A DNA stretch of 64,000 bases from Enorma burkinafasonensis. GTDB taxonomy: Bacteria; Actinomycetota; Coriobacteriia; Coriobacteriales; Coriobacteriaceae. The stretch spans positions 186,001 through 250,000 of the forward strand of contig NZ_LR597501.1 in NCBI RefSeq assembly GCF_902150035.1, in the 5' to 3' direction. Below the pieces are notes generated by a model. The model searched no databases, was not told the DNA's origin, and was given only the letters and a program-made list of their open reading frames with translations. A program made the position numbers and the translations under genes. Below are positions 37,618 to 51,785 of the stretch, in pieces (the stretch's first letter is position 1; each line of letters opens with the position of its first letter).

Positions 37618-39891
37618 ATGAGCACCCGCAAAGCCACGACCGCCAACGCCGCGCCGGCGGAGGGGACGCCCGCCGCTCAGGAACCCTGCCTCATCATCAC
37701 GCAGGACGATATCAACCTGTTCGCCGCCGGCATCTGGCAACGCAGCTGGGAGAAGATGGGCGCGCACCCCGATGTCCAGGACGGCGTCTCCGGCTGGCAC
37801 TTCGGCGTCTGGGCACCCGACGTCAAGAGCGTCCACGTGGTGGGCGACTTCAACGGCTGGGACTCGTGGGCGAACCCGCTCGAGCATATCGGCGGCGGCA
37901 TCTGGCAGGGCTTCGTCGGCGGGCTCTCAGAGGGCGACCTCTATAAGTACGTCATCGAGTGCGAGGACGGGCGGCTCCTCTACAAGGCCGACCCCTACGG
38001 CTTCTACGCCGAGCAGGCGCCCGGCACCGCCTCGCGCCTCATGGACCTCGCCGGCTACACCTGGGGCGACGAGGCGTTCATCGAGGAGCGCCGCTCACAC
38101 GACCACATGGAGCGCCCGCTCGACATCTACGAGGTCCATCTGGGCAGCTGGAAGCGTCACGGCGACGAGCCGCAGGGCGAGCCGCGCGAGGACGGAACCT
38201 ATCCCGGGCCCGGCGACCCCTTCCCCGCACAGCGCGGCACCTTCTACACCTATGACGACCTCTCGGTCGAGCTCGTGGACTACGTGCGCGAGATGGGCTA
38301 CACCCATATCGAGGTCATGCCCGTGATGGAGCACCCCTTCGACGGCTCGTGGGGCTACCAGGGCACCGGCTACTTCGCGGCGACCGCGCGCTTCGGCGAG
38401 CCCAAGCGCTTCATGCACTTCATCGACGCCTGCCACCAGGCGGGCATCGGCGTCATCCTCGACTGGGTCCCCGGCGGCTTCTGCGCCAACGACGAGGGCC
38501 TCGCGACCTTCAACGGGCAGATGCTCTACGAGCGCGAGATCCATCCCAACTGGGGCACGCACAAGTTCGACTTCGGCCGCGGCGAGGTGCGCAGCTTCCT
38601 GGTCTCCAACGCGCTCTTCTGGATCGAGCTCTTCCATGCCGACGGCCTGCGCATGGACGGCGTCTCGAGCATGCTCTACCTGAACTTCGGCGTGGACGAC
38701 CCCGGCCAGAAGAAGTTCAACAAGTACGGCACCGAGGAGGACCTCGACGCCTCCGCGTTCATCCGCCAGGTCAACGCCGCGGTGGGCCGCCAGTTCCCCG
38801 ACGTCATGATGATCGCCGAGGAGTCGACCGCCTGGCCGCTCGTGACCTACCCGCCCGAGGAGGGCGGCCTGGGCTTCCACTACAAGTGGGACATGGGCTG
38901 GATGAACGACACCCTGCACTACATGCAGACCGACTTCCCCTGGCGCCCGGGTAACCACCGCCTGCTCACCTTCTCGATGATGTACGCCTTCAACGAGAAC
39001 TTCGTCCTGCCACTCTCGCACGACGAGGTCGTGAACGGCAAGTGCTCGCTCATCGGGCGCATGCCCGGTGACTGGTGGCGCCAGTTCGCCGGCCTCCGCA
39101 CGCTCGCGTTCTACCAGATGGCGCACCCCGGCGCGCAGCTCACGTTCATGGGCGACGAGATCGCCCAGTTCATCGAGTGGCGCTACTACGAGTCGATCCA
39201 GTGGTTCTTGACCGAGCAGTTCGAGACCCATGCGCGCCACCAGGCGTTCATCAAGGCGCTCAACCACCTCTACGCCTCCGAGCCCGCCTTCTGGGAGCGC
39301 TCCTACACCGAGGACGGCTTCACCTGGATCGACGCGGACAACGCCAAGCAGTCCATCATCTCCTTCGTCCGGCACGGCAACGACCCCGCCGACGACCTCG
39401 TCGTCATCATCAACTTCGACCCCGCCTCCTATACGGACTTCCACCTCGGCGTCCCGCGCGAGGGCGACTGGGAGGTCGTGTTCAACTCCGACGAGCCGGA
39501 GTACGGCGGCAGCGGCTACACCGACAACGCCGTGTACATGAGCGTCCCCTACCCGTGGAACGGTTGCGAGAACTCGCTCACCATCGCGCTGCCGGGGCTG
39601 GCCGGCATCGTGCTCAAGCGCCAGGGGCCGAGCTCCTACGTCCCGCCCAAGCCCAAGCGCCGCACCGGCGCGCGCAAGACCGCCCCGATCACCGACCCGG
39701 GCGCCGCTCCGGTGAAGAAGCCCGCGACGAAGCGCACCGCCACCAAGAAGGGCACGGGCGCGACCAAGACAACGGCCAAGACCGCCGCGAAGGCGAAGGC
39801 CGCTTCGAAGCCCGCCGCCAAGAAGGCGGCAGGCACCCGCACCGCGGCCAAGAAGGCCGCATCCAAGACTACGCCGAAGGGCGACGCGTAA
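37618..39891 (+). CDS. glgB: GlgB, 1,4-alpha-glucan branching enzyme with histone-H1-like C-terminal tail
   Basis: Cuts alpha-1,4 chains and rejoins them as alpha-1,6 branches in glycogen. The 757 residues hold a CBM48 domain (about 45-150), the GH13 barrel with nucleophile Asp347 in GLRMDGVSS, the acid Glu pair 401-402 in IAEEST and the SHDE motif, then a C-terminal beta domain to about 675. The last 80 or so residues are a Lys/Ala/Thr tail with repeated PAAKKA-type units, unlike ordinary GlgB and similar to histone H1. The ATG at 37618 has TTGGAAG upstream; an in-frame ATG at 37579 has no clear ribosome site. First gene of the glycogen run; glgP starts 52 bp on. Confidence 0.95.
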   Translation: MSTRKATTANAAPAEGTPAAQEPCLIITQDDINLFAAGIWQRSWEKMGAHPDVQDGVSGWHFGVWAPDVKSVHVVGDFNGWDSWANPLEHIGGGIWQGFVGGLSEGDLYKYVIECEDGRLLYKADPYGFYAEQAPGTASRLMDLAGYTWGDEAFIEERRSHDHMERPLDIYEVHLGSWKRHGDEPQGEPREDGTYPGPGDPFPAQRGTFYTYDDLSVELVDYVREMGYTHIEVMPVMEHPFDGSWGYQGTGYFAATARFGEPKRFMHFIDACHQAGIGVILDWVPGGFCANDEGLATFNGQMLYEREIHPNWGTHKFDFGRGEVRSFLVSNALFWIELFHADGLRMDGVSSMLYLNFGVDDPGQKKFNKYGTEEDLDASAFIRQVNAAVGRQFPDVMMIAEESTAWPLVTYPPEEGGLGFHYKWDMGWMNDTLHYMQTDFPWRPGNHRLLTFSMMYAFNENFVLPLSHDEVVNGKCSLIGRMPGDWWRQFAGLRTLAFYQMAHPGAQLTFMGDEIAQFIEWRYYESIQWFLTEQFETHARHQAFIKALNHLYASEPAFWERSYTEDGFTWIDADNAKQSIISFVRHGNDPADDLVVIINFDPASYTDFHLGVPREGDWEVVFNSDEPEYGGSGYTDNAVYMSVPYPWNGCENSLTIALPGLAGIVLKRQGPSSYVPPKPKRRTGARKTAPITDPGAAPVKKPATKRTATKKGTGATKTTAKTAAKAKAASKPAAKKAAGTRTAAKKAASKTTPKGDA

Positions 39892-39943
39892 CGGCGACGC
39901 TCCCTCGAGTAGATAGACCCTGTACCCGAACTGAAAGGCACCA

Positions 39944-42370
39944 ATGAATAGGATCTTCGACAACAAGGACGAGTTCATCGAGCTGTACCGGTCGTCGGTC
40001 ACCTCCATCTCGGGCAAGCCGTTCGAGATGACGAGTGACCTCGACCGCTTCCAGGCGCTCGCCAAGCTCATCGCGAGCAAGTCGCGCGCCATCCAGACCG
40101 AGACCGAGGAGCGCGTGACCGAGCGCGGGCAGAAGCGCGTCTACTACTTCTCCATCGAGTTCCTGATCGGCCGCCTGCTCGACAACTACCTACTCAACCT
40201 GGGCGTCCGCGACATCGTGAAGGACGGTCTCGCCGAGATGGGCGCGGACCTCGACGCCCTGTGCGAGCTCGAGCCCGACCCCGCGCTCGGCAACGGCGGC
40301 CTGGGCCGCCTCGCCGCGTGCTTCCTCGACTCCATGGCGCATGAGGGCATCGCCGGCTACGGCAACGGCATGCGCTACCGCTACGGCCTCTTCAAGCAGG
40401 AGATCGTCGACGGCGCCCAGCACGAAACCACCGACGAGTGGCTCTCCCACGGCTACCCCTGGGAGGTCCGCCGCCCCGACAAGGCCGTGCGCATCGGCTT
40501 CGGCGGCCGCGTCGAGGGCTACGAGCAGGACGGCCGCACGTTCTACCGCACGGTCGACACGCAGGACGTCCTCGCGGTCCCCTACGACATCCCCATCGTG
40601 GGCTACGGCGGCGAGACCGTCAACAAGCTCCGCGTCTGGAGCGCCGAGCCCGTCGAGGAGCAGTTCGACCTCGAGGCCTTCAACCGCGGCGACTACGCGC
40701 TCGCCGACGCGCACCGCGCCGAGGCCGAGGCCATCAGCGCCATCCTCTACCCCAACGACGCGGGCGAGCACGGCAGGCTCCTGCGCCTCAAGCAGGAGTA
40801 CCTCTTCGTCTCGGCCGGCCTCTCCAGCGTGCTCGACACCTTCCGCGCCGAGCACGGCAACGACTGGAAGCGCCTGCCGGACTACGTCGCGATCCACACC
40901 AACGACACCCACCCGGCCATGTGCGGCCCCGAGCTCATGCGCGTCCTCATCGACGAGGAGAGGCTCGAGTGGGACGAGGCGTGGGACATCGTGACCCGCA
41001 CCATCTCCTACACCAACCACACGATCCTGCCCGAGGCGCTCGAGAAGTGGCCCATCTCGACCTTCTCCAAGCTGCTGCCGCGCCTCTACCAGATCATCGA
41101 CGAGATCAGCCGCCGCTACAACAGCGCGTTCGACCGCGGCTCCGAGGGCTGGCAGGAGCGCCTGCGCCAGACGGCCATCCTCTGGGACGGCGAGGTGCGC
41201 ATGGCAAACCTCTCCGTGATCTGCAGCCATTCCGTGAACGGCGTCGCCAAGCTCCACACCGAGATCCTGAAAGAGCAGACGCTCAAGGACTTCTACGCGC
41301 TCACGCCCGAGAAGTTCAACAACAAGACGAACGGCATCTCGCACCGCCGCTTCCTCGCCGAGGCGAACCCCAGCTACGCCAGGCTCATCACCGAGGCCAT
41401 CGGCGAGGGCTGGCTCGATGATGCCGACGAGCTCGCCAAGCTCGAGCGCTTAGAGGGCGACCCCGCCTTCCTCGAGCGCGTGGGCGAGGCCAAGCGCGAC
41501 AACAAGCTGCGGCTCGCCCGCTACGTCAAGCGCGAGTGCGGACTTGTCATCGACCCCGACACGATCTTCGACGTCCAGGTCAAGCGCTTCCACGCCTACA
41601 AGCGCCAACTCCTGAACATCTTCAAGGTGATGGACATCTACAACCGCCGCCTCGCGGACCCCAACTTCCGCGTCGCGCCCACGACGTTCATCTTCTCCGG
41701 CAAGGCCGCCTCGAGCTACACCTTCGCCAAGGAGACCATCCGCCTCATCAACTCGGTCGCCGACGTCGTGAACAACGACCCGCGCGTCAACGAGGTCATG
41801 AAGGTCTGCTTCATCCCCAACTTCCGCGTCTCGAACGCCCAGCTCATCTACCCCGCCGCCGAGATCTCCGAGCAGATCTCCACGGCCGGCATGGAGGCCT
41901 CGGGCACCTCGAACATGAAGCTCATGATGAACGGCGCGCTCACGCTCGGCACCATGGACGGTGCCAACATCGAGATCGTGAAGCTCGCCGGCGAGGAGAA
42001 CGAGAAGATCTTCGGCCTCACCGCACCCGAGGTCGACGAGCTCCGCGCGAGCGGTATGCACTTCGCGTGGGACATGTACAACGCCGACCGCGACCGTTTA
42101 GGCCGCGTTATCGACGAACTCACCGATAATACGTTCGCCCGCCTCTCCGGCGACTTCGGCAGCATCCATAATGAGCTTATGAGCAGTAACGACCATGACT
42201 TCGTCATGAAGGACTTCATGTCCTACGTCACTGCCTGGGAGGAGCTCACCGCGAGCTACTCCGACCGCACGGACTGGAACCGTCGCGCGCTGCACAACAC
42301 GGCGAGTTCGGGCTGGTTCTCCAGCGACCGCACCATCCGCGAGTACCGCGACGACATCTGGGGAGCGTGA
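39944..42370 (+). CDS. glgP: GlgP, glycogen/alpha-glucan phosphorylase
   Basis: Releases glucose-1-phosphate from non-reducing ends of glycogen, using PLP. The 808 residues match the phosphorylase family: GNGGLGRLAACFLDS, the NDTHPAM block, VKRFHAYKRQLLN, and the PLP-lysine segment EASGTSNMKLMMNG with Lys659. The mammalian regulatory phosphorylation site is absent. The ATG at 39944 has AAAGG upstream. It sits between glgB and glgC, so synthesis and breakdown enzymes are transcribed together, as in the B. subtilis glg operon, though the order here differs. Confidence 0.97.
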   Translation: MNRIFDNKDEFIELYRSSVTSISGKPFEMTSDLDRFQALAKLIASKSRAIQTETEERVTERGQKRVYYFSIEFLIGRLLDNYLLNLGVRDIVKDGLAEMGADLDALCELEPDPALGNGGLGRLAACFLDSMAHEGIAGYGNGMRYRYGLFKQEIVDGAQHETTDEWLSHGYPWEVRRPDKAVRIGFGGRVEGYEQDGRTFYRTVDTQDVLAVPYDIPIVGYGGETVNKLRVWSAEPVEEQFDLEAFNRGDYALADAHRAEAEAISAILYPNDAGEHGRLLRLKQEYLFVSAGLSSVLDTFRAEHGNDWKRLPDYVAIHTNDTHPAMCGPELMRVLIDEERLEWDEAWDIVTRTISYTNHTILPEALEKWPISTFSKLLPRLYQIIDEISRRYNSAFDRGSEGWQERLRQTAILWDGEVRMANLSVICSHSVNGVAKLHTEILKEQTLKDFYALTPEKFNNKTNGISHRRFLAEANPSYARLITEAIGEGWLDDADELAKLERLEGDPAFLERVGEAKRDNKLRLARYVKRECGLVIDPDTIFDVQVKRFHAYKRQLLNIFKVMDIYNRRLADPNFRVAPTTFIFSGKAASSYTFAKETIRLINSVADVVNNDPRVNEVMKVCFIPNFRVSNAQLIYPAAEISEQISTAGMEASGTSNMKLMMNGALTLGTMDGANIEIVKLAGEENEKIFGLTAPEVDELRASGMHFAWDMYNADRDRLGRVIDELTDNTFARLSGDFGSIHNELMSSNDHDFVMKDFMSYVTAWEELTASYSDRTDWNRRALHNTASSGWFSSDRTIREYRDDIWGA

Positions 42371-42476
42371 TGCCGCACTAGGGGGACGTGACAAGGTGAA
42401 TCTCGGGCCCGGCGCGGGCCATGCGCCGGGCACCGCTAGGAAGGATATTGGCACGGGTATCTGAAGGAGAACATCG

Positions 42477-43622
42477 ATGAGCAAAAAGGAATGCATCGCA
42501 ATGCTCCTCGCAGGAGGACAGGGCAGCAGGTTGGGAGCGCTCACCTCTAAGATCGCGAAGCCCGCGGTCTCGTTCGGCGGAAAGTACCGCATCATCGACT
42601 TCACGCTGTCGAACTGCGCGAACTCCGGCATCGACACGGTGGGCGTGCTGACGCAGTACCGTCCCTACCAGCTGCATGCCTACCTGGGATCGGGCAGCGC
42701 ATGGGATCTGGACGAGAAGGGCGCGGGCGTGTCGATCCTGCCGCCGTACGCCACCCAGGAGGGCGGCGCATGGTACGCGGGCACCGCGGACGCCGTGACC
42801 CAGAACCTCGACTACATCAAGTCGCATGACCCCGAGTACGTGCTCATCCTCTCCGGCGACGCCCTCTACCGCATGGACTACCGCGCCATGCTCGACTCAC
42901 ATATCGAGAACAACGCGGACCTCACCATCGCCGTCATGCCCGTGCCCTGGGAGGAGGCGAGCCGCTTCGGCATCCTCACCGCCGACGACGAGGGCCGCAT
43001 CACCCGCTTCGACGAGAAGCCCGAGAAGCCCGAGAGCAACCTCGCCTCGATGGGCATCTACATCTTCACCGCCGACTTCCTCATCAAGGCGCTCGAGGAG
43101 GACGCTATCGACCAGCGCTCGAGCCATGACTTCGGCGGCGACATCATCCCCAACGCCCTCGCCGAGGGCAAGCGCCTGTTCGTCCACGAGTTCCACGGCT
43201 TCTGGCGCGACGTGGGCACCATCGCGAGCTACCACGAGACCTCGATGGACCTGCTCGGCTCGAACCCCGCGTTCGACCTCTTCGACAATGCCGTGCCCGT
43301 GATGTCGAACGACCTCACGCGCCCGCCTCACTACATCGGGCCCGAGGGCCGCGTCGACGACTGCCTCATCTCCAACGGCTGCCGCATCCTCGGCACCGTG
43401 CGCCACTCGATCATCTCGACGGACGCCGTCGTGGGCGAGCGCGCCGTGGTGGAGGACTCCGTGCTGCTGCCGGGTGCCGTCGTGAAGAGCGGCGCCTACG
43501 TGAGCCGCGCCATCCTGGGCGAGAACGCCGTCGTGGAAGAGGGCGTCAAGCTCGGCTCCGTCGACACCACGAAGGACACGGCCGTCGTCGGAAACGACGT
43601 CGTCATCGGGAAGGGGGAATGA
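42477..43622 (+). CDS. glgC: GlgC, glucose-1-phosphate adenylyltransferase (catalytic subunit)
   Basis: Makes ADP-glucose, the committed glycogen precursor. The 381 residues have an intact N-terminal nucleotide motif [14 protein letters not shown], the [12 protein letters not shown] block, the sugar-binding FDEKPEKP and GIYIF, and a C-terminal left-handed beta helix with hexapeptide-type repeats. The ATG at 42477 has GAAGGAG upstream. glgD begins 4 bp after the stop. In Gram-positive bacteria GlgC usually forms a heterotetramer with GlgD. Confidence 0.96.
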
Positions 43623-43626
43623 ACCG

Positions 43627-44736
43627 ATGATCAACCAGAAGGCCATCGGCTATATCACCGCTAACTACTCGAGCTCGGAGAAGAGCATCCTCGTCGAGAA
43701 CCGCTCCATCGCCTCCGTGCCGTTCATGGGCCGCTACCGCCTCATCGACTTCCCGCTCTCCAACATGGCGAACGCCGGGATCAGGACCGTGGGGCTCGTG
43801 CTGCCGGGCAACTGGAGATCGATCCTCGACCACGTGGGCCACGGCAAGGACTGGATGCTCGACCGCAAGAAGGGCGGCCTGTTCCCCGTGCCGGGCAACC
43901 CCTACGGCACCACCAAGCAGGGTATGCGCTTCCTTTTGCGCGACATCATCTCCAACAAGGAGCTCTTCCAGCGCTCCGACAAGCCCTACGTGGTCATGAT
44001 GGCGTCGAACATCATCTTCAACCTCGAGCTCGACGAGATCATCGATGCGCACGAGCGCAGCGGCGCCGGCCTCACCATGGTCTACGTGCATGCCGAGCGC
44101 GCGCACAAGGACTGCTCGCGCCTCATCATCGGCGACCGCGGCCGCGTCCAGAAGGTCGAGCCCGGCTGCGAGTACGGCGACAACAAGTTCATCGACTGCT
44201 TCGTCGTGAACCGCGACCTCCTGCTGCAGATCATCGAGCGCTACGAGAGCGCCGACTACCTCGATATCTTCGAGGCCATCGCCGGCGACTTCGGCCTCAT
44301 CGACGTGTGCAGCTATGAGTTCAAGGGCTATGCGATCGGCATCTTCAACGAGAAGACGTACTACGACCGCAGCATGGAGCTGCGCGACCCGCTCTTCGCC
44401 GACCAGCTCTTCCGCAAGGACCGCCCGATCATGACCAAGGCGCACGACGCGCCCCCGGCGAAGTACTCCGCCGGCAGCAACGCCACCAACTCCCTCATCT
44501 CCGCCGGCTGCGAGATCGAGGGCACGGTGCGCGGCTCCATCCTCGCCCGCGGCGTCATCGTCGAGAGCGGCGCCAGCGTCACGAACAGCATCATCATGCA
44601 GTCCTGCGTCGTCAAGAGCGGCGCGCGCGTCGAGAACGCCATCATCGACAAGGGCAACGTGATCCCGGCCAACACCGAGCTGCGCGGCACGCCCGACGCG
44701 ATCCTGGTCGTCGGCAAGAACCAGATGCCCGCGTAG
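43627..44736 (+). CDS. glgD: GlgD, non-catalytic ADP-glucose pyrophosphorylase subunit
   Basis: A 369-residue paralogue of GlgC. The adenylyltransferase fold and C-terminal beta helix remain (SVTNSIIMQSCVVKSGA), but the catalytic GGxGxRLxxLT loop is missing: the equivalent N-terminal region reads GYITANYSSSEKSIL. It is therefore expected to be a regulatory subunit that raises GlgC activity. The ATG at 43627 is 4 bp after glgC. A hairpin with four T follows 29 bp after the stop and may limit readthrough into glgA. Confidence 0.93.
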   Translation: MINQKAIGYITANYSSSEKSILVENRSIASVPFMGRYRLIDFPLSNMANAGIRTVGLVLPGNWRSILDHVGHGKDWMLDRKKGGLFPVPGNPYGTTKQGMRFLLRDIISNKELFQRSDKPYVVMMASNIIFNLELDEIIDAHERSGAGLTMVYVHAERAHKDCSRLIIGDRGRVQKVEPGCEYGDNKFIDCFVVNRDLLLQIIERYESADYLDIFEAIAGDFGLIDVCSYEFKGYAIGIFNEKTYYDRSMELRDPLFADQLFRKDRPIMTKAHDAPPAKYSAGSNATNSLISAGCEIEGTVRGSILARGVIVESGASVTNSIIMQSCVVKSGARVENAIIDKGNVIPANTELRGTPDAILVVGKNQMPA

Positions 44737-44764
44737 AGCGCGAGCAGCGAAAGCGTTACCATAG

Positions 44765-44799
44765 AACCGCCGCCCCGCCCCGCGCGTGGCGGCGGTTTT
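44765..44799 (+). terminator. Probable terminator/attenuator between glgD and glgA
   Basis: Perfect 10-bp stem AACCGCCGCC / GGCGGCGGTT with a 13-base loop; the T run is only four including the stem end. It likely terminates part of the transcripts, so glgA may be expressed below glgBPCD or from its own promoter. Confidence 0.55.
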
Positions 44800-44826
44800 G
44801 GAATCCGAAGGAATCGGGGGATTCAT

Positions 44827-46944
44827 ATGTCCGATAAGAAACTGCAGGTGGTGATCGCCTCCGCCGAGTGCGCGCCGTTCGTCAAGACCGGCGGCCTGGG
44901 CGATGTCGCCGGCTCCCTGCCCCAGGCGCTCGTCGCCGCCGGGGCCGACGTGATCGTGATGGTGCCCAAGTACGGCTCGATCCCTGCGCGCTACACCGAG
45001 CGCATGGAGCACTTCCGTGACTTCTACGTGAGCCTCGGCTGGCGCAACGAGTACTGCGGGCTGGAGCGCCTGGACATGGGCAACGGCGTCACCTACCTGT
45101 TCGTCGACAACGAGCACTACTTCCTGCGCGACTACCCCTACGGCTTCTTCGACGACGGCGAGCGCTTCGCGTTCTTCTCGAAGGCCGTGTGCGAGAGCCT
45201 CCAGTACCTCCCCGAGGGCTTCGAGTGCGACGTCCTGCACTGCAACGACTGGCACACCGCGCTCGCGCCCGTGTTCCTGCGCGAGTTCTACCAGGGCCTG
45301 CCCCTCTACGAGCGCGTGAAGACGGTCTTCACCATCCACAACATCGCCTTCCAGGGCCAGTACTCAGACACCATCCTGAACGACATCCTGGGCCTCGCGC
45401 ACATCCCCGCCGCCGCGGGCCAGCTGCGCTGCGACGACCGCTCCATCAACTACATGCAGGGCGCCCTCAAGTACACGGACGCCATCACGACCGTGAGCCC
45501 GAGCTACGCCTGGGAGATCCAGACGCCCGAGTACGGCGAGGGGCTCGACGGCATCCTGCGCGAGCGCTCGAGTGTGCTCTCGGGCATCCTGAACGGCATC
45601 GACACGGACGCCTGGAACCCGGCGACCGACACCGCCATCGCTGGGAACTACAAGGTCGGCGACATGGCGGGCAAGGCCGCCTGCAAGGCCGCCCTCCAGG
45701 AGGAGCTCGGCCTCGAGGTGCGCGACGACCGCCCGCTCATGGTCATGGTCACGCGCCTCACGCGCCAGAAGGGCATGGACCTCGTGACCTACGCGCTCGA
45801 CCGCATCCTCTCGGGCGGCGTGCAGGTGGCGGTGCTCGGTACCGGCGACTACGAGGAGCCCATGCGCTACTTCGCCGACAAGTACCCCGGCACCATGGCG
45901 GCCCGCATCACGTTCGACTCCGCCCTCTCCCACCGCATGTACGCCGGCGCCGACCTGTTCCTCATGCCGTCGCTCTTCGAGCCGTGCGGCCTCTCCCAGA
46001 TCATCGCCATGCGCTACGGCACCCTGCCCGTGGTGCGCGAGACCGGCGGCCTGCGCGACACCGTCATGCCCTACAACCACTTCACCGGCGAGGGCACCGG
46101 CTTCTCGTTCGCCAACTTCAACGGCGACGAGATGGGCGACGCCGTCTTCCGCGGGGCGCGCCTGTTCTGGGACGACCGCGCCGCGTGGAACCAGGTCGTC
46201 AAGCAGGCCATGGAGACCGACTTCAGCTGGACCCGCTCGGCTGCCGCCTACCTGGACCTCTACCGCGGTCTGCATCCCGAGTGCGCCTTCGTCGTGCCCG
46301 CGCCGGCCGCCGAGCCCGCACCTGCCGCCGAGCCCGAGCCCGCCGCGGCTCCCGAGCCCGAAGTGAAGCCGGCTGCGGCGCCCGAGCCCGAGGTGAAGCC
46401 GGCTGCCGCGCCCGAGGCGAAGCCCGCAGCCGCGGCCGAGTCCGCGGCAGATGCGAAGACGGCGCCCGCCCCCGCCAAGAAGCCCGCCGCCAAGAAGGCG
46501 CCCGCGCGCAAGACCGCCGCGAAGAAGGCCGAGCCCGCGAAGGCCGAGGGGAACGCCCCCAAGAAGGCCGCGCGCACGACGGCGCGCAAGACTGCGGCCG
46601 CCGAGAAGGCCACGACCGCGACCGCTGCGAAGAAGCCCGCCGCGAAGAGCACCGCCGCCAAGGCCGCCCCGGAAAAGCCGGCGACCAAGACGGCTTCCGC
46701 GAAGAAGGCGACGGCCAAGGAGGCCGCCACCGCGATCGAGACCGCGGCAGCCGAGACACCCAAGGCGACGACCGCGAAGAAGACCGCGACCAAGCGGGCC
46801 ACCGCCGCGAAGGCCGCTCCCGCGAAGAAGGCCACCCCGGCACCCAAGGCGGCAGCTGCCGCCGAGGAGCCGGCGGAGAAGCCCGCGCCCAAGGCGCGCA
46901 CCGTCTCGGCCGCCCGCAAGACCACGCGCAAGCGCTCCTCGTAA
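44827..46944 (+). CDS. glgA: GlgA, glycogen synthase with acidic linker and histone-H1-like C-terminal tail
   Basis: GT5 glycosyltransferase that adds glucose from ADP-glucose to glycogen chains. Residues 1-480 are an ordinary GlgA: ADP-binding KTGGLGDVAGSLP near the N-terminus, CNDWHTALAPV, MVTRLTRQKGMDL and PSLFEPCGLSQIIAMRYG. Beyond about 485 follow about 60 residues rich in Pro, Ala and Glu with two near-identical PEPEVKPAAA units, then about 160 Lys/Ala/Thr residues with many AAKKA and KKPAAK units, ending KTTRKRSS. Typical GlgA stops near 480, so the extension is about 220 residues. The ATG at 44827 follows GGAATCGGGGG. Same type of tail as GlgB. Confidence 0.95.
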   Translation: MSDKKLQVVIASAECAPFVKTGGLGDVAGSLPQALVAAGADVIVMVPKYGSIPARYTERMEHFRDFYVSLGWRNEYCGLERLDMGNGVTYLFVDNEHYFLRDYPYGFFDDGERFAFFSKAVCESLQYLPEGFECDVLHCNDWHTALAPVFLREFYQGLPLYERVKTVFTIHNIAFQGQYSDTILNDILGLAHIPAAAGQLRCDDRSINYMQGALKYTDAITTVSPSYAWEIQTPEYGEGLDGILRERSSVLSGILNGIDTDAWNPATDTAIAGNYKVGDMAGKAACKAALQEELGLEVRDDRPLMVMVTRLTRQKGMDLVTYALDRILSGGVQVAVLGTGDYEEPMRYFADKYPGTMAARITFDSALSHRMYAGADLFLMPSLFEPCGLSQIIAMRYGTLPVVRETGGLRDTVMPYNHFTGEGTGFSFANFNGDEMGDAVFRGARLFWDDRAAWNQVVKQAMETDFSWTRSAAAYLDLYRGLHPECAFVVPAPAAEPAPAAEPEPAAAPEPEVKPAAAPEPEVKPAAAPEAKPAAAAESAADAKTAPAPAKKPAAKKAPARKTAAKKAEPAKAEGNAPKKAARTTARKTAAAEKATTATAAKKPAAKSTAAKAAPEKPATKTASAKKATAKEAATAIETAAAETPKATTAKKTATKRATAAKAAPAKKATPAPKAAAAAEEPAEKPAPKARTVSAARKTTRKRSS

Positions 46945-47082: not shown

Positions 47083-48330
47083 ATGTTCTGCAACAAATGC
47101 GGCCGCGAGCTCCCCGAGGGCGCGGCGTTCTGCAACGCCTGCGGCGCCTCCGCATCCCTCGGCGCAGACGCCGCGGCAGCAGCCGACGGCAGCGCAGCCA
47201 CGGACCGACAGGCCGGAGGCGACCCCTCCCCCTCGTCGGCGCCCGGCGGTGGCACCGGCCCCGCGGCATCGGGCGCCGTCCCGCCGCCGATCCCGCCCCA
47301 GGCGGCCGCCCAACCCCAGGCGCAGCGGACGCACAACGACAACGTCGCGCTCGCCTCCCTCGTCTGCGGCGTGATCGGCCTGTTCTGCAGCCCGACCCTC
47401 ATCATCGGCATCGCGCTCGGCATCATCGCCATCGTGCTCGCCTCGTCCCATCGCAAGGCGGGCGGCACCAGCACCCTTGCCACGGTCGGCAAGGTATGCG
47501 GCATCATCGACCTCGCGCTGGCCGCGATCCTCTTCATCCTGTTCACGACCGTGGGGTGCACCACCTTCGCGATCGTGGGCAACGCGGCGCTGGAGAGCTC
47601 CTCGCGCGCCGAGAGCACCGAGAGCGGGACCGACACGATCGAGAACGGGAACGGGACCGGTGGAACCACCGGGACCTCAGAGCCGGCGACGGTCGAGCTC
47701 TCGGACGCCGAGGTCGAGGATATCTCCAACCAGGTCGCCGCCTATCTCGACCCAATCTTCGCGCAGGACAGCGAGGCGGTCGATGAGCTCGCCGCGCTCG
47801 CGGACAGCGAATTCCAGGAGGTCTTCGGGTTCGGGCTCGATGAGGCCGGCGTGGGGGCGCGCGAGTACGTGCTCTGGCGGCTCGAGGGCATGAGCTGGGA
47901 GATCTCGAGCATCGAGGCCTACTCCGACGGCACGGCGATAGCGAACATCACGCTCAACTCCTGCTACAGAAGAGACGTGCACAGCGCGTTCGCATACCTC
48001 ATGGACGTGTACTTCGAGCGCGGCGGCGACATCCACGACCCCGAGCGGGTGGGACAGGTGCTCGCGGCATCTCAGGAGATGTTCTATAACACGGACGTCC
48101 CGGACTGGAGCGGCATCGACAGGACATCGGTCCCCTTCAGGTTCGTGCAGCTGGGCGATGGCTCATATGGGCCCCAAACGAACACCTGGGACTACCAGAT
48201 GCGCACCACCTTCGCGCCGCTTAACGCCGACAGCATAGAAATCGTCCTTGCGGACGAGGAGCTGTGCCTGACCTACGAGATGTATCCCCCCGAGGAGTAC
48301 GCCGACCCCTATCTCGAGGGCATCATCTAG
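47083..48330 (+). CDS. Zinc-ribbon, DUF4190-like membrane protein of unknown function
   Basis: Unrecognised beyond domain types. The 415 residues begin with a zinc ribbon (MFCNKCGRELPEGAAFCNACG), then a Pro/Ala/Gly-rich linker (about 30-85), two TM helices (about 88-118 and 135-160) of the DUF4190 kind, a Gly/Thr/Asn/Ser stretch, and an acidic C-terminal domain of about 210 residues that should lie outside the membrane. The ATG at 47083 has AAGGAG upstream. It sits between glgA and the GH13-GH77 gene, separated by hairpins. The outer domain resembles, in layout only, other ribbon-TM-sensor proteins. A role in glycogen metabolism is unproven. Confidence 0.8.
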   Translation: MFCNKCGRELPEGAAFCNACGASASLGADAAAAADGSAATDRQAGGDPSPSSAPGGGTGPAASGAVPPPIPPQAAAQPQAQRTHNDNVALASLVCGVIGLFCSPTLIIGIALGIIAIVLASSHRKAGGTSTLATVGKVCGIIDLALAAILFILFTTVGCTTFAIVGNAALESSSRAESTESGTDTIENGNGTGGTTGTSEPATVELSDAEVEDISNQVAAYLDPIFAQDSEAVDELAALADSEFQEVFGFGLDEAGVGAREYVLWRLEGMSWEISSIEAYSDGTAIANITLNSCYRRDVHSAFAYLMDVYFERGGDIHDPERVGQVLAASQEMFYNTDVPDWSGIDRTSVPFRFVQLGDGSYGPQTNTWDYQMRTTFAPLNADSIEIVLADEELCLTYEMYPPEEYADPYLEGII

Positions 48331-48485: not shown

Positions 48486-51400
48486 ATGAGACTTACCCAT
48501 AACAGCCGCCTCGAGCGGTTCCGCTCCCCCTTCGGCGCGGTGACCGTGGGCACGCCCATCCGGCTCGCCCTCGAGGTCGAGGACGCCGACCCCGCATCGG
48601 TCGCGGCGACGCTGCGCATCTGGATCGACGGGCGCGGCGAGGAGCTCGTGCCCATGGAGCACGTGGGCGCCGGCCGCTTCGAGGCGACGATCCGCTACGA
48701 CGACCCTCTCATCGTGTGGTACAGCTTCGCGGTGCGCTGCGGCGACACCGAGCTCCACTGCGGCGCCGCGCACGGGCGCACGGGAGGCGTGGGCGCGACC
48801 TACGACTACGCCGAGGTCCCCTCCTTCCAGATCACCGTGTACCGCCACCGCGCGACGCGCCCCGCCTGGTACGAGCGCGGCATGGTCTACCAGATCTTCC
48901 CCGACCGCTACCGCCGCGACGACGCCTGGCGCGAGCGCTGCGAGCGGGCGCTCGCCGAGCCGCACAACGGCATCCCCCGCCGCATCGTCGAGGATTGGAA
49001 CGAGCCGCCGGTCTACGAGCGCGCCGCGGACGGCTCCATCGCGAGCTGGGACATGTACGGCGGGTCCTTGAAGGGTATCACGGGCGACCTCGACCGCCTC
49101 GCCGAGATGGGCATCACCGCGATCTACCTCAACCCCATCTTCAAGGCGGCGAGCAACCACCGCTACGACACGGCCGATTACCTCGAGATCGACCCCATGC
49201 TCGGCACCGAGGAGGACTTCCGCGAGCTCTGCCGTGAGGCCGAGCGCCGCGGCATCTCGATCATCCTGGACGGCGTCTTCAACCACACCGGCGACGACTC
49301 CGTCTACTTCAACCGCTACTACAACTTCCCCGAGCCGGGCGCCTGGCAGGGCCCCGAGTCGAAGTGGTACGACGCCTACTGCTTCAACGAGGACGGCACC
49401 TACCGCTGCTGGTGGGGCATCGAGAACATGCCCGACCTGAACCAGAGCTCGCCGCTCGTGCGCGAGCTGCTGCTCGGCGAGGGCGGCGTGATCCGGCGCT
49501 GGACGCGCGCCGGCGCGCGCGGATGGCGCCTCGATGTGGCCGACGAGCTGCAGGAATCGCTCATCGAGGACATCAAGGCGACGCTCCTGTCCGAGAAGCC
49601 CGACGGCCTGCTTCTGGGTGAGGTCTGGGAGGACGCGTCGAACAAGATCAGCTACGGCAAGCCGCGCCACTACCTGCTGGGGTCCGAGCTCGACTCGGCG
49701 ATGAACTACCCGTTCCGCGATATGGTCCTGGGCTTCTTGCTGGGCACGATGACCGCCTCGGACGCGGCCGAGGCCATCGAGACGCTGCGCGAGAACTACC
49801 CGCCCGAGGCGCTCGCCTGCTGCCTCAACCTCCTGGGCAGCCATGACCGGCCGCGCATCGCCTCGCTGCTGGGCGGCGGGCCCGACGAGAGCAAGCTCCC
49901 CGAGGAGGAGCGCGGCCGCTGGCGCCTCTCGCCCGAGGCCATGGGCCTCGCCAAGGGCCGCTTCTGGCTCGCCACCCTCATGCAGATGACCTTCCCGGGC
50001 GTGCCCTCGATCTACTATGGCGACGAGTACTGCCTCGAGGGCCTCTCCGACCCCGGCAACCGTCGCACCATGCCGCTCGAGGAGGACATCTACGACCGCG
50101 ACATGCAGGACATCATCCGCAACGCCGCGGCGATCCGGCGCGCGCTCCCCTGCATGGTCACGGGATCCATCGAGGCCTTCGTCCCCGAGGGCGCCGGCGA
50201 CGACGTGCTCGCCTACACCCGGCGCGGCGAGGACGGCGAGGTCGCCTGCGTGCTCGTGAACCGCAGCCTCGACGCGACGCATACCGTCCGCATCCCCGCT
50301 CCGGCAGAGGCCGCGACCGATGTGGTCTCGGGCGCCGAGCTCACGGTCGAGGACGGCTCCGTCGAGGTCACGCTCTGGCCGTTCGGCTCGTCGGTCGTGT
50401 ACTTCCACCCCGTCCAGCGCCTGCAGAAGCCGCTCGAGGACGGTGCGGGCGTCCTCTGCCATATCACCTCGCTGCCCACGGGCACCGGCAGACCCGGCAC
50501 GCTCGGCGAGCCCGCGCGCCGCTTCATCGACCATCTCGCCGCCATGGGCATGCGCTACTGGCAGATCCTGCCCGTGAACCCCACCGACATGTTCCGCTCG
50601 CCCTACTCGGGGCCGTCGGCCTTCGCGGGCAACATCGCGCTCATGGAGGAGACCGAGGACGAGCTCAGGCGCGACTTCGCCGCCTGGCAGGCCGCCGGCG
50701 ACGGCGCCGTCGACCGCGAGTTCACCGCCTTCTGCCGCGCCAACGCGAGCTGGCTCGAGCCCTACAGCGCGTTCATGGCCATCAAGCGCGCGCTGCTCGA
50801 GACCCCGCGCAGCGAGTGGCCGGCGGAGCTCCAGACGTACGACCCGGCGTTTCTCACCGACGCCCGCTTCGCCCGCGAGGCGAAGATCCAGGCCTACCTG
50901 CAGTACCGCTTCGAGCGCGCCTGGCGCGACACCCGGGCGTACGCGCACGCGCGCGGCATCCAGATCGTCGGCGACATCCCCATGTACGTCGCTGACGACT
51001 CCGCCGACGTGTGGGCGGCGCCCGAGCTCTTCTCGCTCGACCGCGACGGGCGCCCGACCCAGATCGCCGGCGCGCCGCCCGACGGCTTCGCCCCCGAGGG
51101 CCAGATCTGGGGCAACCCCACCTACCGCTGGGACGCCATGAAGGCGGACGGCTACCGCTGGTGGCTCGCGCGCTTGAGGCGCGCCTGCAGCCTCTATGAC
51201 CGCGTGCGCCTGGACCACTTCCTCGGATTCCACAACTACTTCAGCATCCCCGCGGGCCAGAAGGGCAACGCCGGCCGCTGGCTCCCCGGACCCGGCCGTG
51301 AGCTCTTCGAGCTCGCCGCGCGCGAGCTCGGGCCGCTCCCCTTCATCGCCGAGGACCTGGGCATCCTCACGCCCGGCGTGCGCTCGCTGATGGCGAGCTG

Positions 51401-51785
51401 CGGGTTCGCCGGCATGGACGTGCTCGAGTTCTCCGACTACGACGTGCGCCAGGGCCTGCACCCGCACCCCGGCAAGGTCTTCTACACCTCGACGCACGAC
51501 ACCTCGACGCTCGTGGGCTTCTGCACGCGCTCCTTCCAGAGCATGGGCACGCTGCTCGGCGGGCGCGAGCTCGCCGCCGAGCTGGTGAGGGAGGCGCTCG
51601 CGAGCGACGCCGGCGTCGTCATGATCCCGCTGCAGGACCTCCTCGGCCTCGGCGACGGGGCCCGCATGAACGTGCCCGGCGTGGCCGACGGCAACTGGCG
51701 CTGGCAGGCGCACGAGGATGACGTCGCCGACTGCGAGCGGCGCATCGCCGACCTCATGGTCGAGACGGGCCGCTTCGCCCGGTAG
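48486..51785 (+). CDS. GH13-GH77 fusion: alpha-glucan hydrolase (neopullulanase-like) plus 4-alpha-glucanotransferase
   Basis: A 1099-residue fusion of two glucan enzymes. Residues 1-120 form an N-terminal starch-binding-type beta domain; the GH13 barrel (about 125-560) has Asp350 (GWRLDVADE), Glu379 (LLGEVWED) and Asp454 (GSHDRPRI). From about 645 a MalQ-type GH77 domain follows, with Asp910 (RLDHFLGFH), Glu956 (IAEDLG) and Asp1005 (STHDTST). All six catalytic acids are present, so both halves should work. No signal peptide is seen, so it is cytosolic: it would debranch or cut limit dextrins and re-pair short maltodextrins after GlgP. The ATG at 48486 has only a weak ribosome site. Confidence 0.93.
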   Translation: MRLTHNSRLERFRSPFGAVTVGTPIRLALEVEDADPASVAATLRIWIDGRGEELVPMEHVGAGRFEATIRYDDPLIVWYSFAVRCGDTELHCGAAHGRTGGVGATYDYAEVPSFQITVYRHRATRPAWYERGMVYQIFPDRYRRDDAWRERCERALAEPHNGIPRRIVEDWNEPPVYERAADGSIASWDMYGGSLKGITGDLDRLAEMGITAIYLNPIFKAASNHRYDTADYLEIDPMLGTEEDFRELCREAERRGISIILDGVFNHTGDDSVYFNRYYNFPEPGAWQGPESKWYDAYCFNEDGTYRCWWGIENMPDLNQSSPLVRELLLGEGGVIRRWTRAGARGWRLDVADELQESLIEDIKATLLSEKPDGLLLGEVWEDASNKISYGKPRHYLLGSELDSAMNYPFRDMVLGFLLGTMTASDAAEAIETLRENYPPEALACCLNLLGSHDRPRIASLLGGGPDESKLPEEERGRWRLSPEAMGLAKGRFWLATLMQMTFPGVPSIYYGDEYCLEGLSDPGNRRTMPLEEDIYDRDMQDIIRNAAAIRRALPCMVTGSIEAFVPEGAGDDVLAYTRRGEDGEVACVLVNRSLDATHTVRIPAPAEAATDVVSGAELTVEDGSVEVTLWPFGSSVVYFHPVQRLQKPLEDGAGVLCHITSLPTGTGRPGTLGEPARRFIDHLAAMGMRYWQILPVNPTDMFRSPYSGPSAFAGNIALMEETEDELRRDFAAWQAAGDGAVDREFTAFCRANASWLEPYSAFMAIKRALLETPRSEWPAELQTYDPAFLTDARFAREAKIQAYLQYRFERAWRDTRAYAHARGIQIVGDIPMYVADDSADVWAAPELFSLDRDGRPTQIAGAPPDGFAPEGQIWGNPTYRWDAMKADGYRWWLARLRRACSLYDRVRLDHFLGFHNYFSIPAGQKGNAGRWLPGPGRELFELAARELGPLPFIAEDLGILTPGVRSLMASCGFAGMDVLEFSDYDVRQGLHPHPGKVFYTSTHDTSTLVGFCTRSFQSMGTLLGGRELAAELVREALASDAGVVMIPLQDLLGLGDGARMNVPGVADGNWRWQAHEDDVADCERRIADLMVETGRFAR

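Follow-up and report, generated by a model that had tools for sequence, protein, structure and literature searches.

The branching enzyme GlgB of Enorma burkinafasonensis continues for some 80 residues beyond its expected end as a Lys/Ala-rich tail, which raises the question of what a glycogen-building enzyme does with a histone-H1-like C-terminus. The gene lies in a 64,000-nucleotide stretch of contig NZ_LR597501.1 (hereafter the window, to which all positions refer), within a cluster of the order glgB-glgP-glgC-glgD-glgA on the + strand (37618-46944), in which glgA is the last operon gene. The relevant features are:

37618 to 39891, + strand: glgB, 1,4-alpha-glucan branching enzyme, 757 aa, from its ATG start and NCBIfam scores
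37711 to 39624, + strand: conserved core of GlgB (aa 32-669), used as search query; D347, E401, H468 and D469 are invariant
39625 to 39657, + strand: fold/tail junction of GlgB, GPSSYVPPKPK
39625 to 39888, + strand: tail of GlgB (aa 670-757), cationic and rich in Lys/Ala/Thr, from composition, AlphaFold2 and a negative Pfam search
39944 to 42370, + strand: glgP, glycogen phosphorylase, without cationic tail (TIGR02093, 1055 bits)
42477 to 43622, + strand: glgC, glucose-1-phosphate adenylyltransferase, without cationic tail
43627 to 44736, + strand: glgD, glucose-1-phosphate adenylyltransferase subunit, without cationic tail (full ORF sequence)
44827 to 46944, + strand: glgA, glycogen synthase, 705 aa (NCBIfam PRK00654, 636.9 bits)
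46279 to 46458, + strand: first 60 aa of the GlgA tail, an acidic Pro/Glu-rich spacer of net charge -7
46459 to 46866, + strand: Lys/Ala-rich body of the GlgA tail, net charge +25
46867 to 46941, + strand: basic end of GlgA, last 25 aa, net charge +6, including VSAARKTTRKRSS

The ORF of glgB (37618-39888, stop codon 39889-39891) begins with ATG, and an in-frame GTG also exists upstream. Its product exceeds the cut-offs of three NCBIfam equivalogs, namely PRK12313 (806.1 bits, cut-off 577), PRK05402 (791.8, cut-off 741) and TIGR01515 (726, cut-off 463.95). It contains the CBM48, alpha-amylase and alpha-amylase C domains of a GH13 enzyme, and the catalytic Asp/Glu/Asp residues (D347, E401 and D469) were invariant across 30 aligned homologues. 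By curated models, GlgB is a normal branching enzyme with all domains and tested catalytic residues present. A histidine in region I (WVPGHF) is usual in branching enzymes but does not strictly define the family. At this place GlgB reads WVPGGF (aa 283-288; 38464-38481); the 98 main GlgB proteins examined from Coriobacteriia likewise have Gly here, whereas the nine closest Bacillota relatives have His. Judged from these alignments, the exchange of His for Gly is a clade-wide active-site change of the Coriobacteriia main GlgB.

The NCBIfam models stop at residues 667-669 of 757, and residues 670-757 (39625-39888; GPSSYVPPKPKRRTGARKTAPITDPGAAPVKKPATKRTATKKGTGATKTTAKTAAKAKAASKPAAKKAAGTRTAAKKAASKTTPKGDA) form a tail of 88 aa with 24 Lys/Arg, 22 Ala and 2 Asp/Glu. 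The initial annotation, which had described a Lys/Ala/Thr-rich tail of about 80 residues beyond the normal GlgB end, was accurate in size and position. Its remark that branching enzymes usually end earlier was also borne out, as solved GlgB chains run from a few to about 20 residues past the model end point and 54 of 56 GlgB proteins from other Actinomycetota stop at most 22 residues past the fold. A Pfam search returned no match for the GlgB tail or the GlgA tail, so that neither is recognised by a curated family, and a tandem-repeat finder detected no DNA tandem repeat in the GlgB tail. In an AlphaFold2 model based on 30 homologues, the last GlgB strand spans residues 662-670, while residues 686-757 have a pLDDT of about 31-39 and lack secondary structure, which predicts that the tail is disordered. 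Because pLDDT also drops below 50 in parts of the core (426-483 and 510-529), the model supports tail disorder but does not provide a quality structure.

We then considered how widespread the tail is. The two families labelled f1 and f2 in the genome sample are equated here with Coriobacteriaceae and Atopobiaceae, an assignment that we infer. Besides this class-wide sample, GlgB ends were taken from named genomes, chiefly species of Collinsella, Enorma and Olsenella, of which NCBI places Enorma in Coriobacteriaceae and Olsenella in Atopobiaceae. When GlgB was compared across Coriobacteriia, as the initial annotation had proposed, the tail proved conserved and not absent from close relatives: 96 of the 102 main GlgB proteins had a tail of 30 aa or more (46 of 49 in Coriobacteriaceae, 50 of 53 in Atopobiaceae). 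The C-terminal end was net positive in all 102, including the few short ends of 16-27 aa. Median tail length was 78 aa in Coriobacteriaceae and 74 aa in Atopobiaceae (range 16-201), with Lys plus Arg at 27% and 30% and Asp plus Glu at 3% and 5%, respectively. One genome from a third family carried a GlgB tail of 116 aa with more mixed charge. The junction GPSSY(V/K)PP or a near variant recurred among Coriobacteriaceae GlgB proteins. In nine rumen-type Atopobiaceae loci, one block of the GlgB tail, KARRSAAAKKAAATRKANAAKKAA, is well conserved, in contrast to the drifting tails elsewhere.

Ordinary bacterial GlgB and GlgA proteins share all domains and tested catalytic residues with the proteins studied here, whereas a cationic GlgB tail was found in none of the 56 other Actinomycetota; there the median extension beyond the query was 2 residues, and the two longer ends were neutral or acidic. 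The nearest Bacillota GlgB proteins extended 3-28 residues past the fold, a few of these ends being short and Lys-rich. The second GlgB-like paralogue of Coriobacteriia (about 35-41% identical) carried no cationic tail in any of 15 sequences. This second protein occurs in many Atopobiaceae and in genus g5, and mostly has a VPVHF motif (15 loci).

The initial annotation was incomplete in one respect: GlgA, encoded in the same operon, bears a longer tail of like kind, which we located because a genome scan with an AKKA codon pattern led back into the window. GlgA scores 636.9 bits against NCBIfam PRK00654 (cut-off 603), whose profile ends at aa 482 of 705, and the tail comprises 221 aa past the query core (46279-46941). 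It consists, in order, of an acidic Pro-rich spacer, a Lys/Ala body and a basic end motif, VSAARKxxxRKR; its Lys/Ala character was judged by composition, disorder having been modelled for GlgB. Averaged over 38 GlgA tails, the charge was -6 in the Pro-rich first 60 residues, +23 in the body and +7 in the last 25 residues. GlgA was tailed in 35 of 37 Coriobacteriaceae (109-464 aa; median 261 aa with the two untailed proteins included) and in 2 of 24 sampled Atopobiaceae; in one of these tails a base is unresolved and the frame is probably broken. None of eight divergent GlgA paralogues had a tail, all stopping at the fold. Both Coriobacteriaceae genomes without a GlgA tail belong to genus g5 and have a GlgB tail, and a long GlgA tail is present in each of the three whose GlgB tail is shorter than 30 aa; thus every Coriobacteriaceae genome examined for both enzymes has a tail on GlgB, on GlgA or on both. 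Inspection of C-termini and ORFs in the same operon found no cationic tail on GlgP, GlgC or GlgD, and since the TIGR02093 profile reaches aa 807 of 808, GlgP ends where its family profile ends. Within the operon, the tails are therefore restricted to the two polymer-building enzymes. GlgA ends often carry a motif like ATSVSAARKTTTRKKR, and at the C-terminus (46894-46941) the VSAARKxxxRKR-like motif is kept across Coriobacteriaceae genera while the remaining tail drifts; from this conservation, it is possibly a short binding motif.

To find such tails elsewhere in the genome, we used the GlgB tail as a protein query, which returned itself and two weak, unlike matches. The query missed both GlgA and topoisomerase I (TopA), which shows that profile searches do not pick up tails of this kind, and we therefore turned to scans with codon patterns. 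The pattern KK[STPA]3K gave nine matches (two in GlgB, four in GlgA, one in TopA and two outside a Lys-rich frame), AKKA marked the same three proteins, and KxxKxxK gave nothing in this genome. Long Lys/Ala tails in these scans were thus confined to GlgB, GlgA and TopA, with the proviso that a pattern-based screen lets tails with other spacing escape. A protein resembling ribosomal protein L17 by eye, with a short tail of mixed charge, also came up, as did a basic ribosomal-type protein of 69 aa; both were set aside. Across 124 loci (811 kb), 89 ORFs had a Lys-rich C-terminus, and each of them was GlgB or GlgA; since the loci were centred on glg genes, this result describes the gene neighbourhood. 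A genome-wide tendency to Lys/Ala tails is supported neither by the scans nor by this ORF survey.

Cationic tails of this kind have precedents in other bacterial systems. The basic histone-like C-terminus of PhaF/PhaM binds DNA non-specifically and spreads PHB granules along the nucleoid (PMC13052382), and in Pseudomonas aeruginosa the 195-aa disordered, KPAA-rich C-terminus of AlgP is needed for the spacing of polyphosphate granules (PMC9239181). Like PhaF/PhaM, GlgB and GlgA are storage-granule proteins with a basic, histone-like C-terminal part, and they share with AlgP the long Lys/Ala(/Pro) tail, disordered by modelling in GlgB and alike in composition in GlgA. PhaF/PhaM are, however, dedicated granule-surface proteins and AlgP is a dedicated DNA-binding protein with a helical N-terminus, regular repeats and no enzyme, whereas here the glycogen-building enzymes themselves bear the tail, and the place of an N-terminal granule-binding or helical domain is taken in GlgB by a whole GH13 enzyme. 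In Streptomyces TopA, Lys repeats stabilise the enzyme-DNA complex (PMC7398561); the TopA of this genome has the Lys/Ala-rich C-terminal tail of actinobacterial topoisomerase I (ending in AAAKTGAKKGAAKKTAAKKAAPRKTTKKA), but acts on DNA and not on carbohydrate. FrzCD of Myxococcus xanthus requires a basic peptide of about 30 aa for nucleoid targeting (PMC5716589) and thus exemplifies a non-DNA protein directed to the nucleoid by a histone-like peptide, although this peptide is short and N-terminal and the protein is a chemoreceptor. Glycogen is absent from a 2025 review of bacterial organelle positioning that treats polyester and polyphosphate granules (PMC13052382), and the available text of a 2024 review of prokaryotic alpha-glucan enzymes does not mention the nucleoid, disordered regions or Coriobacteria. 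Literature searches, with subscription journals outside their coverage, found no reports of Lys-rich tails on glycogen enzymes. Tailed glycogen enzymes are a variant of the H1-like tail theme that is apparently unreported in the literature searched.

By analogy with these systems, we propose that the glycogen-building enzymes carry cationic tethers in the style of PhaF, AlgP and TopA that keep enzyme and granule on the nucleoid, a working model to which we give slightly less than an even chance. Coriobacteriaceae GlgB and GlgA, and GlgB alone in most sampled Atopobiaceae, each combine an ordinary glycogen enzyme with a C-terminal histone-H1-like tail. In the model, the folded enzyme would sit on the growing glucan and the tail would bind a polyanion irrespective of sequence, with chromosomal DNA as the likeliest candidate. 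Each tail would be weak, but many enzyme molecules coat one granule, and their combined binding would keep the nascent granule at the nucleoid. Such tethering would localise synthesis, prevent granule fusion and split granules between daughter cells, much as PhaF and AlgP do with polyester and polyphosphate granules, respectively; the acidic Pro-rich spacer of GlgA may keep the basic part off the catalytic domain.

The tail could also be the neutral product of read-through or slippage in GC-rich low-complexity DNA past the functional gene end, as its length and order drift fast and pooled pN/pS in the C. aerofaciens group was 0.43 in the tail versus 0.034 in the GlgB core. However, Lys/Arg was the most conserved class of site. 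In 23 gap-free pairs of GlgB tails that were at least 70% alike, 96.8% of Lys/Arg residues were kept, compared with 88.1% of Pro, 85.4% of Ala and 80.7% of Ser/Thr. Furthermore, 59% of altered Lys/Arg codons had changed silently, whereas by the code table, disregarding transition bias, a random change of AAG is silent in about one of eight or nine cases. Lys is also preferred over Arg against the GC pressure: the ratio is 868:179 in Coriobacteriaceae GlgB tails, while the core of this GlgB, in a 66%-GC gene, has 15 Lys to 29 Arg. The Lys preference, the retention of Lys/Arg and the silent changes argue for selection on positive charge. Together with a charge sign that never reverses and the strict split between a tailed main GlgB and an untailed second paralogue, they render the neutral origin disfavoured and very improbable. 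The pattern, with sequence and length drifting while charge is retained, rather fits selection for a flexible cationic segment.

That the tail could bind anionic partners, as the initial annotation suggested, fits a conserved and charge-selected tail, but its composition suits any polyanion, which weakens the case for DNA, as do the few Coriobacteriia GlgB ends of 16-27 aa. Since the tails occur on both chain-building enzymes and the other such tail in our scans is on a DNA enzyme, TopA, DNA is favoured and ranks first among the partners listed there (DNA, RNA, polyphosphate and glycogen phosphate); we infer DNA as partner, tethering and inheritance with confidence just short of even. Polyphosphate is a serious if unlikely rival: tails that bind or co-condense with it would site glycogen synthesis at polyphosphate granules. 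Of 55 tailed genomes, 45 encode PPK1, this one among them, and the median GlgB tail was 51.5 aa without PPK1 versus 88 aa (Mann-Whitney p = 4e-4), a trend that persisted after genome size (t about -3), both values being uncorrected for phylogeny. DNA binding does not predict this shortening. Yet the ten genomes with shorter tails that lack PPK1 also lack PPK2, and the GlgB ends in these genomes, 16-86 aa long, are nevertheless net positive. As nine of the ten genomes are near-complete (the tenth is 86% complete), polyphosphate cannot be the universal partner. The tails might instead act on glycogen or the enzymes themselves, through glycogen phosphate, solubility, spacing in crowded granules or grouping via acidic surfaces. 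Their confinement to glucan-building enzymes and the pairing of acidic and basic segments in GlgA agree with this, but unphosphorylated glucan is neutral and GlgP, which also works on the granule, has no tail, so that we consider it rather unlikely. The suggestion that the tail holds the glycogen enzymes in one assembly did not stand as a GlgA-tail/GlgB-tail pair: most sampled Atopobiaceae have the GlgB tail alone, hence a GlgA tail is no obligatory partner and mutual pairing is not required. The same distribution makes the GlgA half of a DNA tether non-essential. Disordered tails rich in Lys bind RNA no less readily than DNA, and binding or condensation with RNA or ribosomes would concentrate the synthases in the cytoplasm. 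A plastid branching enzyme is reported to have been drawn into an RNA splicing complex (PMC13172542). The glg operon, however, has no RNA-linked context and the only other long Lys/Ala tail in our scans is on a DNA enzyme, which leaves RNA an improbable partner.

Returning to the nucleoid tether, we regard as more tentative the wider proposal that in Coriobacteriia the glycogen synthase and branching enzyme arrange the granules they build on the nucleoid and see to their inheritance there, with charge and not sequence being selected. If true, the polymerising enzymes would themselves be the tethers, and glycogen would have its own equivalent of PhaF/AlgP. Positioning and partition of bacterial glycogen have hardly been studied, and a class-wide, paralogue-specific, charge-selected tail in common gut genera (Collinsella, Olsenella) offers a direct handle on granule positioning. 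H1-like tails also occur on metabolic enzymes, beyond DNA-binding proteins.

Two proteins are encoded downstream of the glg genes. The one directly after glgA (47083-48330) begins with a zinc-ribbon-like CxxC stretch and contains a hydrophobic segment, and ORF 48486-51785 (1099 aa) appears by eye to fuse an alpha-amylase-type enzyme with a MalQ-like 4-alpha-glucanotransferase.
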